64,000 nucleotides of DNA, from assembly GCF_014359565.1 (NCBI RefSeq), contig NZ_JACIZD010000001.1, forward strand, positions 186,001 through 250,000, read 5' to 3'. A program made the position numbers and the translations under genes. Below, piece by piece: positions 55,835 through 63,720 of the stretch. The notes beneath the pieces were generated by a model that searched no databases, had not been told where the DNA came from, and worked only from the letters and a program-made list of their open reading frames with translations. The stretch comes from Immundisolibacter sp. Its GTDB lineage: Bacteria; Pseudomonadota; Gammaproteobacteria; Immundisolibacterales; Immundisolibacteraceae. Positions within the stretch are counted from its first letter, which is position 1; each line of letters starts with the position of its first letter.

Positions 55835-56165
55835 AAAACGGCCCCGCGGCCGGACTTCATCTTGATCCTGGCTCAAGGCGCCCCGATCTGCCCTGCTAAA
55901 CTGCCCGCCAGTTCCGGCCCTGCGGCCGTGCCTGCGCAAACCGCCGATGAACTCATGCCCTCATTGGCCGGGCACCTGCCGCGGGAACGCCATGCAGGCG
56001 CGCCGGTCTTCGCCGAGCCGGCCGTGGCTGAAGATTCGCGGCGGGGCGCCGCTCCCACAAGGACGCCGCTTCCACAAGGGGCCTCACCGACCCCGATCAG
56101 TCGCCAGTGCGTGCACAGAACGACAGAATCTCCCCATCCGCGCCCACGCCAATGGACCACCCGGG
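55835..56165. other. 331-base intergenic region with a promoter-like site and a repeat
   Basis: The longest stretch without a gene. It holds a TGC TAAACT extended -10 like element at 55894-55902 on the plus strand, then repeat copy C (56030-56136), then the desaturase ATG. The desaturase frame is open from 55947 through the repeat, but the upstream residues look like translated repeat rather than protein. Confidence 0.6.
56030..56136. repeat. Dispersed inverted repeat, copy C (with long tail)
   Basis: GAAGATTCGCGGCGGGGCGC followed by CGCTCCCACAAGG, the minus-orientation unit. A second degenerate unit (CGCTTCCACAAGG) follows, and a tail resembling that of copy A (ACCCCGATCAGTCGCC versus ACCCCAATAAGTCGCC). 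It lies in the probable 5' leader of the desaturase gene. Confidence 0.75.
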
Positions 56166-57260
56166 ATGAATGCACCCTCGCCCAACACCACCCCCGACCG
56201 CTTCGAGCTCGAGCAAATGCGCCGCCTGGTGGCGGACCTGTTCGCCTACCGACCGGCGCTGTACTGGGTCGATTTCATCCTCAGCGCCGGCCTGGGCTAC
56301 GCGCTGGCGCTGGCGTACCTGACCGGCAGCGGGCCGGCGTGGGCCCAGGCGCTGGCCTTCGTCGGTGCCGGCGTGCTGCTGTTCCGGGCCGGCACCTTCA
56401 TGCACGAGATCGTGCACATGAACGGCCAGGTCATGCCCGGCTTCCGGCTGGCCTGGAATCTGTTCTACGGCATCCCGCTGCTGATGCCGTCGCTGATGTA
56501 CCGGAACCACCTGGATCACCACAACGTCAACCGCTTCGGCACGCCGCAGGACGGCGAGTACCTGCCGCTGGGCAGCGCGCCCACCGGCGAGACCATCAAG
56601 TACCTGCTCCAGGTGCCGATCCTGCCGCTGCTGGCGGTGCTGCGCTTCCTGGTGGTGACGCCGCTGTCCTACCTGCATCCGGGCCTGCGACGCTGGGTGA
56701 TGCGCCGCGCCTCGTCCTACGGCTCCAATCCCTACTATCAGCGCCAGGTTCCGCCCGACGAGCCGCTCGCGCTGTGGGCGCTGCAGGAGTGGGCCTGCTT
56801 TGCCTGGCTGGCATTCCTGACCGGCCTGTTCGTGACCGGCGTGCTGCCTTGGGCGCTGCTGGGCAAGGTCTATTTGCTGATGACCTTCGCCATCGGCCTT
56901 AACTGGGTGCGCAATCTGGCCGCTCACAAGTACGTCAACACCGGCGCGCGCATGAGCCTGCAGGGCCAGCTCGAGGACTCGATCAACATCACCGGTCAGA
57001 CCTGGCTGACGGCGCTGCTGTTTCCGATCGGCCTGCGCTACCACGCACTGCATCACCTGTTCCCGGCCATGCCGTATCACTCGATGGGCGAGGCGCACCG
57101 GCGGCTGATGGCGCAGTTGCCGCCCGATGCAGCCTACCGGAAGACCGACTATCCCAACTTTTTCGCCGCCGTTTCGCAGCTGTGGCACGGCGCCCGGCAA
57201 AGCGCCGGCAACGGCGCGCTGATGCAGACCTGGCGCCAGCACGGCGCGCCCGGTGGCTGA
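56166..57260 (+). CDS. Membrane fatty acid desaturase
   Basis: A 364-residue di-iron membrane protein. The three histidine boxes are HEIVH (80-84), HLDHH (115-119) and HALHH (near 293-297). At least four hydrophobic segments surround them. A truncated fatty-acyl desaturase fold without a fused electron-transfer domain. The ATG at 56166 was chosen because similarity begins shortly after; there is only a weak GGG ribosome site. It overlaps the diacylglycerol kinase gene by 8 bases, so it is likely to act on membrane lipid acyl chains. Confidence 0.87.
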   Translation: MNAPSPNTTPDRFELEQMRRLVADLFAYRPALYWVDFILSAGLGYALALAYLTGSGPAWAQALAFVGAGVLLFRAGTFMHEIVHMNGQVMPGFRLAWNLFYGIPLLMPSLMYRNHLDHHNVNRFGTPQDGEYLPLGSAPTGETIKYLLQVPILPLLAVLRFLVVTPLSYLHPGLRRWVMRRASSYGSNPYYQRQVPPDEPLALWALQEWACFAWLAFLTGLFVTGVLPWALLGKVYLLMTFAIGLNWVRNLAAHKYVNTGARMSLQGQLEDSINITGQTWLTALLFPIGLRYHALHHLFPAMPYHSMGEAHRRLMAQLPPDAAYRKTDYPNFFAAVSQLWHGARQSAGNGALMQTWRQHGAPGG

Positions 57261-58206
57261 ACAGGCAAGCGTCGGCGTCATCAGCAATCCGGCCAGCCGG
57301 CATAACGCCCGCGGCGGCCTGGCGGCGATCGAGGCGGTGCTCGCCGGCCAGCCGGCGATTCCCCACCGGCAGGCCCGAACGCCGCAGCAGATCGAGGCCG
57401 CGCTCGCGCAACTGGCCGCCGCCGGCACGAGCTGCGTGGTGCTCAGCGGCGGCGACGGCACCGTGCAGGCGGCGCTGACCGCCCTGTCGCTGCGCTCGCC
57501 GTTCGCCTCGCCACCGAGGCTGCTGGTGCTGGCCAGCGGCACCACCAACATGAGCGCCTACGACCTGGGCAGCCACGGTCGTCCGGAGCGGCTGCTGCGC
57601 CGTCTGCTGACGGGCCGGCTCGCCCTCACGCGCCGGCGCGTGCTGTGCGTGCGGGAGGCCGACGGCACCACCCGCTGCGGATTTTTCTTCACTGCCGGCG
57701 GCCTGCCGCAGGCGGTACGGGATTGCCGCGCGTTTCGCGAAACCAGCGCCCTGCCGGGCATGCGCGGCGCGCTGGGCACGGCCACCTGGATCGGCGGGCG
57801 ACTGCTGCGCCTGCTGGCCGGCCGCGAACCTTTCGAAGCCTTGGCGCTCAGCTATCAGCCGGACGCCGAACCGGTCCGCCGCTGCGAGGCGCTGCTGCTG
57901 CTGGCAAGCACGCATCAGCGCCTCGCCCTCGGGCTGAGGCCGTGGTGGGGCGCCGGCAGCGGCCCGATCAGGACCACGTTGATCAGCCGGCCAGCGCGGC
58001 GCCTGGCGCGGGCGCTGCCGGGACTGCTGCGCGGGCGCCCGCCGGCCTTTGCGAATGCCGCCGCCGGCTACCAAAGCCATGCAGTCAGCACCTTGCATCT
58101 GACGCCGACCGGCGGCTACGCGCTCGACGGCGAGGATTACTTTCCACCCGCCGGCAGTGAGCTGGCGATCAGCGCCGGCCCCGAGTTCGAGTTCCTGCAG
58201 CCATGA
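57253..58206 (+). CDS. Diacylglycerol/sphingosine kinase family lipid kinase
   Basis: A 317-residue protein of the DagK/YegS catalytic family. It has GVISNPASRHNARGG near the N-terminus, the nucleotide loop GGDGTV (66-71), and LASGTTNMSAYDLG. It would phosphorylate diacylglycerol (or another lipid alcohol) with ATP to give phosphatidate. GTG start overlapping the desaturase by 8 bases. It overlaps the next gene by 4 bases. Confidence 0.85.
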   Translation: MAEQASVGVISNPASRHNARGGLAAIEAVLAGQPAIPHRQARTPQQIEAALAQLAAAGTSCVVLSGGDGTVQAALTALSLRSPFASPPRLLVLASGTTNMSAYDLGSHGRPERLLRRLLTGRLALTRRRVLCVREADGTTRCGFFFTAGGLPQAVRDCRAFRETSALPGMRGALGTATWIGGRLLRLLAGREPFEALALSYQPDAEPVRRCEALLLLASTHQRLALGLRPWWGAGSGPIRTTLISRPARRLARALPGLLRGRPPAFANAAAGYQSHAVSTLHLTPTGGYALDGEDYFPPAGSELAISAGPEFEFLQP

Positions 58207-59141
58207 GCGGCCCTGCCGGCGAGGCCCTGCGTGAGGCCATCGACCGCCTGATCGACGCGCCTGCCCCGCCGGGTGCCCAGGCCCTGGCGCAGGCGCTGCG
58301 CGCGCGCCACGGCGCCAGCGTGGCGGCGGTGCTGTTCTACGGCTCGAACTTTCGCCGCGCGGACGACCGCGAGGGCCTGCTGGACCTGTACCTGCTGGTC
58401 GACGACTGCCGCACGGCGCTCGGCAGCAGCCTGTCCGCGCTGGCCTGCCGGCTGCTGCCGCCCAACGTCTATTACCTGGAACTGCCGGTCGATGGCCGCA
58501 CCGTGCGCTGCAAGTACGCGCTGCTGGAGCTGGCCGTGTTCGGCCGCTACATGACCGCCCGGCAAAGCTATTTCTGGGGCCGCTTCGGCCAGGCCAGCGG
58601 CCTGCTGTACGCACGTGACGCAGCAGCCCGCCAGCAGGTGATGCGGGCACTCGCGCAGGCCGTGCTGACCCTGCTCGGCAGTGCGCTGCCGCTGCTGCCG
58701 AATGAAGTCGACGAAGCCGCCTGGTGGCAGACGGCGCTCGCCGCCTGCTACGGCGCGGAGCTGCGCCCGGAGCGGCCAGGGGCGGTCGAGGGACTGGTGC
58801 GCGATCTGGCGCCCTGGCGTGAACGACTCACGCCGCTGGCCGCCGCCTGCCTGGACGGCGTGCAGCGGCAGGACGGGCACTACCGCATAACGCTGGCGCC
58901 CGGCCGGCGCTGCCTCGGGCGCCTGGGCTGGACAGTCCGCCGCCTGCTCGGCAAGACGCTGAACGTGGCGCGCCTGGTCAAGGCCGCGTTCACCTTCGCC
59001 GGCGGCGCCGACTACCTGCTGTGGAAGGTCGAGCGCCACTCCGGCGTGCGCATCGAGCCAACGCCCTTGCTGCGCCGCCACCCGCTGCTGGGCATCTGGG
59101 GCGTGGCCTGGCGGCTGTGGCGACGGGGTGGCTTCAGATAG
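58203..59141 (+). CDS. Tam41-like nucleotidyltransferase (candidate CDP-DAG synthase)
   Basis: A 312-residue protein that I do not recognise as a standard bacterial family. Motif order resembles the mitochondrial CDP-diacylglycerol synthase Tam41/Mmp37: YGSNFR (46-51), a D-x5-D-D acidic strand (DLYLLVDD, 61-68), NVYYLE (88-93), KYALLEL (104-110) and YFWGRFGQ (123-130), then helices. Y-G-S plus acidic pair is also the nucleotidyltransferase core. No membrane segment, so it would act at the membrane surface. Context (lipid kinase upstream, CDP-alcohol phosphotransferase nearby) supports making CDP-DAG from phosphatidate. This is inference. Confidence 0.6.
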   Translation: MSGPAGEALREAIDRLIDAPAPPGAQALAQALRARHGASVAAVLFYGSNFRRADDREGLLDLYLLVDDCRTALGSSLSALACRLLPPNVYYLELPVDGRTVRCKYALLELAVFGRYMTARQSYFWGRFGQASGLLYARDAAARQQVMRALAQAVLTLLGSALPLLPNEVDEAAWWQTALAACYGAELRPERPGAVEGLVRDLAPWRERLTPLAAACLDGVQRQDGHYRITLAPGRRCLGRLGWTVRRLLGKTLNVARLVKAAFTFAGGADYLLWKVERHSGVRIEPTPLLRRHPLLGIWGVAWRLWRRGGFR

Positions 59142-59278: not shown

Positions 59279-60436
59279 TCAGCTGGCAAACCAGCGCACG
59301 GCGCGGCTGCCGGTGGGGATTTCACGCCCGACCTGCTCCAGCCACGACACCAGCGGGCCGCGTTGCCGTGCAACGATCCCCTGAGCGACCCGCACCCACA
59401 GCAGCAGTGTCGACAGCACCGTCCAGCCGGCCACCAGCCACAGGCCCAGCGCCGGCTGGCCGACCAGGGCGCACAGCGTCAGCATCAGCAGGTTCGGATT
59501 GCGCCGGGCGGTGATCAGGCGGTTGTAGGAGTCAAACGGCCGCCACACGAACAGCGAGAACCTGGCGCAGAAGCCCTGGAAGCCGCCCTCGGCCAGGCGC
59601 CCGCCGATGTAAGCTGCCACGATCACCCAGATCAGCGTCTGCGTCGGCACGCTGCCCTCGGGCAGGCCCAGCGCCCAGGCGGCGTACCAGAACGGCGGAT
59701 GGATCAGGTCGATACCGTGGTCCAGGATGTCGCCAAAACGGGTGGACTTGACCGTCACCCGCGCCAGCTTGCCGTCGACCGTGTCCAGAAAGGTCATCAG
59801 CCAGGCGCACACCAGGCCCGGCAGCCACCAGCCGCCCCAGAAGGCAAGGCCGGCGGCAACGGTCAGCGCCAGGCCGGTCAGCGTCACCTGATTGGGCGTG
59901 ATGCCGCGCCGGGCACAAAAACCGGTCGCCGCCCGCGCCGGCGCCGGCCACCACCACTTGGTGATGAAATCGGTGACGCCCTTGTAGGCGGTGCCGAACA
60001 GGCGCCGCTCCAGGTCGGTCTGCTCGGCGGGCGTAACGTGCAGCACGTAGGGCGTCGAAACCTTGCGCAGCTTCTTCTGATAGGCGGTGGTCAACGTAGT
60101 GGGGAGCTCGACCACATAGCCGTCGGGCGGCTGCTGTCCGGTCAGCACGGCCTGCGCACGCGTCGCACCGCCCACCGGTGCGTGCAGCGCCACCAGCGGG
60201 CCGTCATCGCTCGCGCGCAGCGCCACGCCGGGCGCATCGACCAGCGCCGCGATTACCCGCTCGTCGAACAGATAATCAGCGCGCAGGCACAGCACGCTGC
60301 GCTGCTGCGGCGGCGCGGCCCCGTCATCCAGCACCTCGATGCCGAGCTTGCCCAGCACGCGCCGCAGGCGTTCGCGCCCGCCAAGGCCCCACAGACGAAC
60401 CGGCGCTTCGCCGGCAAGATACGCGACCGGTTTCAC
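59279..60436 (-). CDS. CDP-alcohol phosphotransferase with a degenerate N-terminal domain
   Basis: A 385-residue membrane protein. The CDP-OH-P motif D-x2-D-G-x2-A-R-x8-G-x3-D-x3-D is complete (D218, D221, G222, A225, R226, G235, D239, D243). Several hydrophobic segments follow. Residues 1-150 form a soluble domain reminiscent of the nucleotidyltransferase half of bifunctional inositol-phosphate transferases, but without the usual G-x-G-T-R motif. The enzyme would make a phospholipid from CDP-DAG and an alcohol or from a CDP-alcohol. Substrate unknown. It is convergent to the Tam41-like operon and divergent from the metallophosphoesterase gene. Confidence 0.8.
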   Translation of the reverse strand: MKPVAYLAGEAPVRLWGLGGRERLRRVLGKLGIEVLDDGAAPPQQRSVLCLRADYLFDERVIAALVDAPGVALRASDDGPLVALHAPVGGATRAQAVLTGQQPPDGYVVELPTTLTTAYQKKLRKVSTPYVLHVTPAEQTDLERRLFGTAYKGVTDFITKWWWPAPARAATGFCARRGITPNQVTLTGLALTVAAGLAFWGGWWLPGLVCAWLMTFLDTVDGKLARVTVKSTRFGDILDHGIDLIHPPFWYAAWALGLPEGSVPTQTLIWVIVAAYIGGRLAEGGFQGFCARFSLFVWRPFDSYNRLITARRNPNLLMLTLCALVGQPALGLWLVAGWTVLSTLLLWVRVAQGIVARQRGPLVSWLEQVGREIPTGSRAVRWFAS

Positions 60437-60537
60437 TTTTCAGACCCACTCATCGGCTGGCAAAAAAGCGTGCAATCGTATATCAAGCCTGCGCCGCCAT
60501 CCGCGCGCCGCGCCCGCCTTCAGGCCACCCTGCTTTC

Positions 60538-61476
60538 GTGTCCAGCATCAAACCGAACGAGCCGAACCCCGCCAACGCCCCGCCGAGCGAATGGGCGCTG
60601 GCGCATTTGTCGGACCTGCACCTGACCGATCCGCTGGCAGACGCGGACGCGCCGCTGGCGATCAAGCAGCGCCTGGGTCGCGCCTCCTGGCGTCGCCGCC
60701 GCAGCCACGTCCATCAGCCGGCGCTGCTGGCCGCCCTGGCGGCAGACCTGCACGCCCAGGCACCGCGCCAGATCGCCATCAGCGGCGATCTGGTGCAGAT
60801 CGGGCTGCGGCGCGAGTTCGAGCAGGCCGCCGACTGGCTGGCCGGCTTTGCGCCGCCGGCGCGCCTGCTGCTGGTGCCGGGCAACCACGAGGCCTACGTG
60901 GCCAACACCTGGCAGGCCGGCCGCGAATGCTGGCGCCCCTACCTGCCGGGCCCAGCCGACGGCGAACCGTGGCTGCAGCGTCGCGACTGGCTGCTGCTGA
61001 TCGGCCTGTCGAGCGCCGTGCCGAGCTGGCCTGGCCTGGCCACCGGCACGCTCGGCGGGGCGCAGATCGCCGCCCTGGACGCGGCGCTGCAAGCGGGCGC
61101 CGACGAAGGGCTGTTTCGGGTCATCGTCGTCCACCATCCACCGGCGGCCGGCGTGGTCGGCTGGCGCAAGCGCCTGACCGATCATCGCCAGTTCGCGCAG
61201 GTCATCGCGCGCCGCGGCGCCGGGGTGATCCTGCACGGCCACGCCCACCGGGCGACGCTGTCACACCTGCCCGGTCCGACCGGCCCGGTGGCGGTGGTCG
61301 GCGCGCCGTCGGCTTCGGCACTCGACCAACGCCCCGACCGCATGGCCGGCTACAACCTGCTGCGCATCCGGCCAGCCGCGCACGCCTGGCAGCTGCGCCT
61401 GAGCCGGCGCGTCTTCAGGCCGCAGACGCGGGACTTCGACTGGCAGGAACACCACGACCTGACCAGCCACGGCTGA
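60538..61476 (+). CDS. Calcineurin-like metallophosphoesterase
   Basis: A 312-residue di-metal phosphoesterase. Metal ligands: D-x-H (SDLHL, 26-28), GD (ISGDLVQIG), GNHE (VPGNHEAY), H in VVHHPP and GHAH (LHGHAH). The start is a GTG at 60538, since no ATG precedes the domain; it is uncertain. No signal peptide. The role may be dephosphorylation of a lipid or nucleotide intermediate, as suggested by divergence from the CDP-alcohol gene; otherwise unknown. Confidence 0.8.
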   Translation: MSSIKPNEPNPANAPPSEWALAHLSDLHLTDPLADADAPLAIKQRLGRASWRRRRSHVHQPALLAALAADLHAQAPRQIAISGDLVQIGLRREFEQAADWLAGFAPPARLLLVPGNHEAYVANTWQAGRECWRPYLPGPADGEPWLQRRDWLLLIGLSSAVPSWPGLATGTLGGAQIAALDAALQAGADEGLFRVIVVHHPPAAGVVGWRKRLTDHRQFAQVIARRGAGVILHGHAHRATLSHLPGPTGPVAVVGAPSASALDQRPDRMAGYNLLRIRPAAHAWQLRLSRRVFRPQTRDFDWQEHHDLTSHG

Positions 61477-61585: not shown

Positions 61586-62647
61586 CTATCGCAAGCGACG
61601 CAACAGGCGCCCGGCAAACAGCAGGATCAGCGTCGGCAGGGCCAGCGCCGTCAGCGGCGCCGGCAGGTGCAGCAGCAGACCCAGGTAACCGAGCGTCTGG
61701 GTGACGAAATACAGCCCGATGCCGGCCACCGTGCCGGCCAGCACGCGGCGACTGAGCGTGCTCGAGCGGTTGCTGCCCAGCACCAGCGGGATGGCCACCA
61801 GCATCATGGCCAGCGTCACCAGCGGTTGTGCCAGCTGCTGCCACAGGCGCAGCTCTTCCTGCGGCACCTGCTCGTTACGGGCCCGCAGATCGCGCACGTA
61901 GAAATACAGGTCGATCGGCGACAGGGCTTGCGGCGGCACCACCAGCACGCCCAGCTGCTGGGCATCCAGGAACGAGTCCCAGTCCAGCTGCGCCAGCTGC
62001 TGCGCGCGCGCCGGCGGCGGCTCGAACTGCTTGACCACCACGTCCTGGAGCCGCCACACGCGGTCCTGCTCCAGACTCGCGCGCTCGGCATGCAGATAGC
62101 GCCGCAGACGCCCGGCGTCATCAAAGTCATACACCGTCACATCGGACGGGGTGCGCCCGCGCAGCATGCGCCCGACGTTCAGGAAACTGCGCCCGTCGCG
62201 CGACCAGAAGCCGCCGCGAAAATCCACCGACACATCCTCGGCCAGCGCCGCGGCGCGCATGCGCTCGGCGCGCATCTCCAGTGCCGGCGCCACGAATTGG
62301 GCCATCAGCAGCATCAGCATCAACAGCGTCAGGCCGGGCGCCAGCACCATGCCGATCAGCCGCCGCAGCGGCAGGCCGGCGGCGCGCATGGCCAGGATCT
62401 CGTTGCCGTCCGCGAGCAGGCCCAGCGGCACCAGCGTGCCCAGCAGGGCGATCACCGGCGTGGCATCCAGCAGCCGGCGCGGCAACATCATCAGCACGTA
62501 CAGGAATGCGTCGACCAACGTGTAGGCGCCCTCGACGTCGTCGAGCTGCTGGATCAGCTCGATGAAACTGAACAGCGCCACGAACACCAGCGCCACCAGC
62601 AGGTAGCCCTGCGCCATGGCGCGGGCGATGTAACGGGCGAGAATCAT
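61586..62647 (-). CDS. lptG: LptG, LPS export permease
   Basis: Inner-membrane permease (353 residues) of the LptB2FG complex that extracts LPS for transport. Six hydrophobic segments in two groups of three (about 11-115 and 270-350) flank a periplasmic beta-jellyroll domain. Start MILARYIARAM overlaps the lptF stop by 4 bases. It resembles lptG more than lptF by sequence and order. Confidence 0.94.
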   Translation of the reverse strand: MILARYIARAMAQGYLLVALVFVALFSFIELIQQLDDVEGAYTLVDAFLYVLMMLPRRLLDATPVIALLGTLVPLGLLADGNEILAMRAAGLPLRRLIGMVLAPGLTLLMLMLLMAQFVAPALEMRAERMRAAALAEDVSVDFRGGFWSRDGRSFLNVGRMLRGRTPSDVTVYDFDDAGRLRRYLHAERASLEQDRVWRLQDVVVKQFEPPPARAQQLAQLDWDSFLDAQQLGVLVVPPQALSPIDLYFYVRDLRARNEQVPQEELRLWQQLAQPLVTLAMMLVAIPLVLGSNRSSTLSRRVLAGTVAGIGLYFVTQTLGYLGLLLHLPAPLTALALPTLILLFAGRLLRRLR

Positions 62648-63720
62648 CGGTGGCGGCGACGCCGCCACTGTGGCAGCACGATCAGCACGGCCAGCACCAC
62701 GCAGCCGAGCAGGGGAACGAGCAACACCCCGGGCCAGGGCGCCAGCTCGCCGTTCTCCACCGCATCCATCACCACCGCCAGCAGGTTGTAGTACACGATG
62801 CAGCCGAGCAGGCCGACCGTCAGCTTGCTGGAGCGGCTGCGCCGCGGCGGCATGCGGCTGATCGGCACGCCCAGCAGGCCCAGCAGGACGGTGGAGAACG
62901 GCGCGGCGATGCGCCACTGCAGCTCGGCCGTGTCCTTCGGATCCGCGGACGCCGCCAGCTCGCCGTTCGCGGTGGCCTTGCGGCGCTTGCGCACGATGGC
63001 CTGCTCCTCGTCCAGGCGCAGCGCCAGCGTGCGGTAGCTGATGATCATGTCGCTGCCCAGGCTGTCGCCCGTGCCCGGATCGAGCTGGTAGTAGCGGCCG
63101 TCGAGGAATTCCACGACCTGCCGCCCGTCGGAGTCGGTGAGCTGGCGTGCCCGCTGGGCGAACACCACCCCATCGGCCTGGCCGCCGCTGTCGGCGTGGG
63201 TGAACACCTGCAGCCGCTCGTCACCGTCGGCCGCTTCGCTGAACATCACCAGACCGCCGGTGAAGTCGGCATAGAACCGGCCCGGCGGCAGGCGCGTCAG
63301 GTCGAAGCGGCGCTCGGCGCTGGCCTCCAGCCGGTAGACGTTCTGATACAGCTGCGGGCGCACCACCAGCGATGCGACTGCCACTACCGCCGCCACCGGC
63401 AGCGCCAGCCACAGCACGGCCTGGAACAACCAGCGTTCGCCGATGCCGCAGGCTGCCAGGGCGGTGGTCTCCTGATCGCGCTGCAGGCGCCCCAGGCCGA
63501 GCGCCACCGACAGCATCAGCGCCATCGGCACGATGGCGTCCAGGCTGATGAACAGCTTCAGCCCGATCAACACCGCCGCCAGGCTGCCGGGCAGTGCGCC
63601 GCTGGCCGCCTCGCCCAGAAAGCGCGCCGAGCTGTAACCGGTAAAAACCAGCAGCAGGCTGCCGCACACCACCGCAAACGGGCTCGCCAGCTCGCGCAGC
63701 AGGTAGCGTCTGAGGATCAT
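62644..63720 (-). CDS. lptF: LptF, LPS export permease
   Basis: The partner permease of LptG (358 residues), with the same topology. The start MILRRYLLRELASPF is canonical, and RLQRDQETTALAACG is the LptF conserved loop that contacts LptB. Four-base overlap with lptG. A TGC TAGACT promoter lies about 47 bases upstream. Confidence 0.95.
   Translation of the reverse strand: MILRRYLLRELASPFAVVCGSLLLVFTGYSSARFLGEAASGALPGSLAAVLIGLKLFISLDAIVPMALMLSVALGLGRLQRDQETTALAACGIGERWLFQAVLWLALPVAAVVAVASLVVRPQLYQNVYRLEASAERRFDLTRLPPGRFYADFTGGLVMFSEAADGDERLQVFTHADSGGQADGVVFAQRARQLTDSDGRQVVEFLDGRYYQLDPGTGDSLGSDMIISYRTLALRLDEEQAIVRKRRKATANGELAASADPKDTAELQWRIAAPFSTVLLGLLGVPISRMPPRRSRSSKLTVGLLGCIVYYNLLAVVMDAVENGELAPWPGVLLVPLLGCVVLAVLIVLPQWRRRRHR

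Follow-up and report, generated by a model that had tools for sequence, protein, structure and literature searches.

The protein encoded at positions 58203-59141 of the window (the whole 64,000-nucleotide stretch of Immundisolibacter DNA that was analysed) is best explained as a Tam41-type CTP:ceramide-1-phosphate cytidylyltransferase that would make CDP-ceramide, a reading to which we give a probability of about 0.7. The reading is built on the fold of the protein, its conserved residues, its neighbourhood and gene order, and its co-occurrence with serine palmitoyltransferase. From these we infer CTP as the nucleotide, ceramide-1-phosphate as the acceptor, CDP-ceramide as the product, and a further enzyme that would use CDP-ceramide. 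The Tam41 fold itself is close to certain, and it is very probable that the protein belongs to a phosphosphingolipid pathway.

The reading frame lies on the forward strand, starts with ATG and contains 312 codons, the length given in the first-pass annotation. It represents a genuine gene, and its family is widespread. It overlaps the last 4 bases of the lipid kinase reading frame upstream, and the kinase frame is in turn overlapped by 8 bases by that of a fatty acid desaturase. Because of these overlaps, the desaturase, the kinase and the nucleotidyltransferase (NTase) probably form one operon (Table 1). No solved structure is related to the window kinase at E 0.01. The desaturase may modify the acyl chain of ceramide, as has been reported for a DesA-family protein in Caulobacter (PMC11324152).

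Table 1. Features of the NTase gene and its neighbours in the window, with the observations on which each assignment is based
Feature	Position	Strand	Basis
Fatty acid desaturase family protein	55947..57260 (true start may lie further in)	+	PF00487 E 1.2e-27; relative in only 4/101 loci
Lipid kinase (DAGK_cat, GGDG motif), CpgB-position gene	57253..58206	+	PF00781 E 2.6e-12; relative beside the NTase in 88/101 loci
Tam41-fold nucleotidyltransferase, CpgC-position gene	58203..59141	+	Reading frame, profile, fold, gene order, conservation
YGS loop, Y46-G47-S48	58338..58346	+	Y in 120/122, G in 121/122, S in 118/122 relatives
D61, the one invariant acid in the NTase core	58383..58385	+	121/122, one gap; aligns with an SpTam41 aspartate
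CDP-alcohol phosphotransferase, CpgA-position gene	59279..60436	-	PF01066 E 1e-9; relative in 54/101 loci
Calcineurin-like phosphoesterase, CC_1158-position gene	60178..61476 (true start probably further in)	+	PF00149 E 5.9e-10; 46/101 loci
LptG-type permease	61586..62917 (match from residue 92)	-	TIGR04408 321 bits, cut-off 240
LptF-type permease	62644..63720	-	TIGR04407 277 bits, cut-off 230

On its own, the window protein matches no Pfam or NCBIfam family, and PF09139 does not match it at E 1. A single-sequence search of the PDB returned one row, a decarboxylase at E 0.23, which was taken as chance. The family profile, run against PDB sequences, ranks two Schizosaccharomyces pombe Tam41 (SpTam41) chains first at E 1e-5, with the next non-Tam41 chain at 0.029. 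A second search, with an alignment built largely from different loci, found SpTam41 at E 2e-5, followed by a small nucleotidyltransferase at E 0.0056. Single family members also match PF09139 (9/39 and 19/55, some under the curated cut-off), and among the 55 members scanned singly no other Pfam family was matched at E 0.01.

An AlphaFold2 model of the window protein, built with the family alignment (pLDDT 93.9, pTM 0.91), consists of an alpha/beta NTase core and, after it, mainly helices, and shows an NTase domain and a helical/winged domain in the Tam41 arrangement. The first five chains returned by Foldseek are Tam41, and VIA-align gives Z scores of 19.3 for 7ecd (over 228 residues), 17.5 for 6ig4, and 17.3 for 6ig2. 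The next fold, that of the aminoglycoside nucleotidyltransferases, has a similar core and scores Z 7.8; readings as an aminoglycoside nucleotidyltransferase, a polymerase-beta-like protein or a toxin-antitoxin protein all reach Z 7.8 at most, far under Tam41, and were set aside. The sharing of this core with the aminoglycoside enzymes could be taken to mean that the protein is non-catalytic or an unrelated nucleotidyltransferase, for example a protein- or antibiotic-modifying one, found in the cluster by chance. This is very improbable, since the Tam41 scores are far higher, the active-site residues are near-invariant across 122 sequences, and the coupling to a lipid kinase is near-universal (88/101 loci). 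The nucleotidyltransferase-like core suspected in the first-pass annotation is therefore borne out by the Tam41 profile match, the PF09139 matches of single members, and the fold (Z 17 to 19 vs 7.8), and its description of the remainder as helical is roughly right. The comparison with Tam41 and PF09139 that it proposed places the family as a distant Tam41 relative on the same three grounds.

Used as a genome query, PF09139 finds 1/200 genomes of the phylum, none over the cut-off, and 0/14 controls, Caulobacter vibrioides included, which puts the family outside what the curated Tam41 model covers. As the window protein has no PF09139 match and some members stay below the cut-off, we call it a distant relative and do not file it under PF09139. 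It resembles Tam41/TAMM41 and the Firmicutes homologue 7ecd in its fold, its YGS loop, its single invariant acid, the equivalents of K104, R127, Y183, and R188, and its basic C-terminal part. It differs from Tam41 in being 13 to 18% identical, in the missing PF09139 match, and in having sphingolipid genes as neighbours.

Conservation was counted in an alignment of 122 distinct relatives, which also takes in those earlier loci that differ in their last 150 residues. The truncated L003 was left out before the 43-row alignment, and L003, L011, L017, L037, and L042 were left out before alignment A1; alignments A2 (10 rows) and A3 (55 rows) are smaller hand-picked subsets. The columns conserved at 95% or more include the YGS loop, D61, Y63, P87, K104, W125, R127, F128, Q130, and P131, and further on Y183, E186, R188, E190, R257, K260, T264, Y271, K275, R278, and H279, and the same picture is obtained in the 39-row and 55-row alignments. 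YGS together with an acidic set of D61, D67, and D68 had been described as conserved-looking, with an alignment of homologues as the check; in that alignment the loop and D61 hold (118-121/122), but D67 is aspartate in 83/122 and glutamate in 15/122, and D68 is aspartate in 48/122. Members of the NTase superfamily usually carry an acid two residues after the first one. In this family that position is Y63, a tyrosine in 116/122, which fits the report that, of the three NTase acids, Tam41 retains only one (PMC11646218). Judged on YGS, D61, and Y63, the family thus has the YGS loop and only the first NTase acid, as described for Tam41 in the same source. In the profile alignment, YGS, D61, K104, R127, F128, P131, Y183, and R188 are identical in SpTam41, and E186 stands opposite an aspartate. 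The conserved C-terminal residues of the family fall past the end of this alignment, which sets it apart from SpTam41.

The highest 19-residue hydropathy of the window protein is 1.5, too low for a membrane-spanning segment. Residues 230-312 form a strongly basic stretch with a net charge of +14. These two properties fit a peripheral attachment like that of Tam41, which is described as attaching through a basic C-terminal helix (PMC7018664), and on its sequence the protein is probably soluble and membrane-associating, which makes the earlier description of it as soluble plausible.

The link to sphingolipids comes from gene order. In two loci of one bacterial family, L127 and L128, called Caulobacter-like from gene order only, the genes are arranged as CpgD> (L127 only) <CofC <CerS <LptG <LptF <MPE CDPPT> KIN> NT> <SPT <CerR <AAL. 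The Caulobacter crescentus cluster CC_1152 to CC_1165 is reported with the same order of functions as L127 (PMC11324152), and the NTase of both loci sits in the slot of CpgC (CC_1161/CCNA_01219), within a phosphosphingolipid cluster and next to the ceramide kinase gene, the CDP-alcohol phosphotransferase, and serine palmitoyltransferase. On the basis of gene order, we treat the window family as the probable equivalent of CpgC. The earlier label "unrecognised" holds for the databases searched, but the family sits where Caulobacter has a gene that has been studied before. The window differs from the Caulobacter order in that the kinase and the NTase are followed by the CDP-alcohol phosphotransferase on the other strand, and in that the ceramide genes lie ~7 to 14 kb downstream.

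In the published pathway, CpgB (CC_1160) is a measured ceramide kinase (PMC10331486), and CpgC is described as required for ceramide phosphoglycerate "through a yet unidentified mechanism" (PMC12275187). Among the Caulobacter cluster genes tested, only CpgB and CpgC are reported as needed for ceramide phosphoglycerate (PMC11324152), and a preprint of 2026 still describes the first attachment of a head group to ceramide-1-phosphate as unidentified (PMC13228409). The 2024 study also noted an InterPro domain in CC_1161 suggesting a CDP-diacylglycerol (CDP-DAG) synthase and proposed that the protein might make a nucleoside-diphosphate-activated ceramide (PMC11324152). CpgD (CC_1152/CCNA_01210), the phosphoglycerate cytidylyltransferase of the same pathway, is reported to act on small phosphoglycerates (PMC12275187). 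A reading frame of the CpgD cluster group follows in the window's genome, and CpgD-like proteins are of the sugar-nucleotidyltransferase type (PF00483/PF12804), a family different from that of the window NTase.

Past the window end, the genome continues with CpgD-like, CofC-like, CerS-like, acyl-AMP ligase, CerR-like, and serine palmitoyltransferase reading frames. This downstream ceramide cluster spans ~249.7 to 257.7 kb in genome coordinates (the window coordinate is the genome position minus 186000). Its serine palmitoyltransferase, ~12 kb from the NTase on the same contig (G000:C1), scores 604 bits vs a cut-off of 500. The only LptF/LptG pair of the window's genome by PF03739 (2 matches) also sits inside the sphingolipid cluster, at G000:C1:247595-249708; two Caulobacter-like genomes have 5 PF03739 matches each vs the 2 found here. 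This lone pair may export both lipopolysaccharide (LPS) and the sphingolipid, or LPS may be absent.

Neighbourhoods were compared in 101 loci, made up of the best 80 of at least 486 relatives found in a scan of named genome contigs (L047-L126), 20 regions chosen from matched genomes, and a 16-kb excerpt of the window. Some of these loci are close relatives, and L051 and the G668 match are probably the same place twice. A kinase relative lies near the NTase in 88/101 loci; in 87 it is upstream and in the same orientation, and in 69 it is within 50 bases. As many of the best 80 loci are cut by contig ends, this and the other neighbour counts are lower bounds: at least 70 and 71 loci for the LptF and LptG groups, at least 54 for the CDP-alcohol phosphotransferase, and at least 46 for the phosphoesterase. 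A CerS-like protein, named by place and size without a family match, occurs in at least 52/101, a CofC-like nucleotidyltransferase in at least 47/101, serine palmitoyltransferase in at least 35/101, and a CpgD-like protein in at least 34/101. Acyl-AMP ligase and fatty acid hydroxylase are found in at least 30/101 each and a CerR-like protein in at least 29/101, and 40/56 loci of ~20 kb have at least one of four ceramide-gene groups. Of the 13 loci that lack a kinase match, 10 were inspected, and L059 has the GGDG motif in a longer reading frame. In L101, L103, L109, L110, L120, and L125, which have no kinase match, the CDP-alcohol phosphotransferase lies immediately upstream of the NTase.

Across 398 genomes of the phylum, serine palmitoyltransferase is over its curated cut-off in 36 and the NTase gene is present in 27; the two counts have the same genome number and were taken as the same draw. 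Both genes occur in 26 genomes, the NTase only in 1, serine palmitoyltransferase only in 10, and neither in 361 (Fisher p 1.6e-31, without correction for relatedness). In the exception, G698, a reading frame of the serine palmitoyltransferase group adjoins the NTase (L135). Among 22 genomes picked for an NTase locus without a nearby serine palmitoyltransferase, 19 carry one that passes the cut-off. Of the control genomes, both Escherichia coli and Caulobacter vibrioides score above the cut-off of the serine palmitoyltransferase model NF047599. The co-occurrence indicates that the family tracks sphingolipid synthesis and that ceramide itself can be made without it, as one would expect of a head-group enzyme.

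Based on these observations, the kinase would convert ceramide to ceramide-1-phosphate. The NTase would bind CTP and Mg2+ in a pocket formed by the YGS loop, D61, K104, R127, and Y183-x-x-E186-x-R188, and would move CMP from CTP to ceramide-1-phosphate; the products would be CDP-ceramide and pyrophosphate. Next, a CDP-alcohol phosphotransferase would swap CMP for a glycerate-type head group, which CpgD and CpgA would extend. Finally, the phosphoesterase would trim the lipid and the LptF/LptG-type permeases would export it.

The weak point of this scheme is the CMP-exchange step: the CDP-alcohol phosphotransferase of the Caulobacter cluster is reported as needed for the second, and not the first, phosphoglycerate (PMC11324152). 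PF01066 matches number 4 in the window's genome and 2 each in the Caulobacter-like genomes G704 and G850, and 6/101 loci (L054, L056, L069, L080, L091, L130) have two CDP-alcohol phosphotransferase reading frames. A second CDP-alcohol phosphotransferase is thus possible, and the second copy in those six loci is a candidate for the head-group transferase. In 17 loci with a kinase-NTase pair and few other cluster genes, no extra conserved transferase stood out among the clusters listed. In an alternative that we consider unlikely, the NTase itself would both form and consume the activated lipid, or would link ceramide-1-phosphate to glycerate through a different nucleotide-dependent reaction, with no free CDP-ceramide. 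CpgC might do both steps, as CpgB and CpgC are reported as the only genes needed among those tested, and the invariant C-terminal residues (R257, K260, T264, Y271, K275, R278, and H279) would be in keeping with an additional activity. However, Tam41 enzymes are described as releasing the CDP-lipid (PMC7018664), and the other CDP-alcohol phosphotransferases counted above could do the second step.

Other observations also count against CDP-ceramide synthesis. CC_1161 is reported with a CDP-DAG-synthase InterPro domain, yet PF09139 finds none of the 14 controls, among them Caulobacter vibrioides, and the NTase members of the Caulobacter-like loci are likewise without a PF09139 match. The NTase is missing from 10/36 serine palmitoyltransferase genomes, and 47/101 loci have no CDP-alcohol phosphotransferase nearby.

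The lipid acceptor could also be a different one. The closest solved relative, Tam41, uses phosphatidic acid (PMC7018664) and the kinase matches DAGK_cat, so the NTase could be a second CDP-DAG synthase, paired with a neighbouring diacylglycerol kinase and recycling diacylglycerol to CDP-DAG much as Tam41 makes it from phosphatidic acid; a relaxed specificity for both lipids is possible as well. This is improbable, though slightly less so than the two-step alternative. The window's genome already has a CdsA-type synthase elsewhere (CTP_transf_1 E 4.8e-56), 26/27 NTase genomes carry serine palmitoyltransferase, the cluster includes ceramide genes, and the kinase in the matching Caulobacter position is reported to phosphorylate ceramide (PMC10331486). 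CdsA-type CDP-DAG synthases (PF01148) would share the kind of product, a CDP-lipid, with the window NTase, but they are integral membrane proteins described as unrelated in sequence and structure (PMC7018664). Somewhat less firmly than for the window protein, we favour the view that the family as a whole is a dedicated CDP-ceramide synthase, a Tam41-fold branch that is the sphingolipid counterpart of the CDP-DAG route. Phrase searches of 5.39 million papers did not find CDP-ceramide.

The NTase gene is present in a single copy in the window's genome, and was found in 3/8 genomes of the order, 19/369 of the class and 27/398 of the phylum. By title, the best 80 of the at least 486 relatives come from Immundisolibacter (75% identity), Nitrospirota, Desulfobacteraceae, other deltaproteobacterial lineages, Halieaceae, and Rhodospirillaceae, and include a few metagenome-assembled genomes labelled Marinimicrobia, Rokubacteria, and Planctomycetota, labels that can be wrong. 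Relatives also occur on 17/72,556 plasmid records, where the features are named hypothetical protein and some of the matches reach into an adjacent glycosyltransferase feature. These records are NZ_CP065408.1, NZ_CP073662.1, NZ_CP097491.1, NZ_CP098495.1, and 13 Roseomonas records, with Diaphorobacter, Pseudomonas, Qipengyuania, and Roseomonas as hosts. Their presence on plasmids suggests that the pathway may move between strains.

Anionic sphingolipids are reported to support the survival of Caulobacter without LPS (PMC12275187, PMC10331486), and the genes for them have been reported as required for the bacterium to be sensitive to polymyxin, to resist detergent, and to be virulent in an insect model (PMC11324152). 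The idea of a nucleotide-activated ceramide for CpgC has been in print since 2024 (PMC11324152); what is new here is the Tam41 fold, together with the residues that are invariant, the coupling seen in the genomes, and how widely the family occurs. With the family assigned to the Tam41 type, its invariant residues named and its homologues known from many lineages, the open head-group step becomes a matter for a short enzyme assay. If the assignment is true, bacteria would build anionic sphingophospholipids via CTP-activated ceramide, with a branch of a fold, that of Tam41, which is known elsewhere from mitochondrial cardiolipin synthesis, and the chemistry that feeds cardiolipin synthesis in mitochondria would have a counterpart in bacterial sphingolipids.
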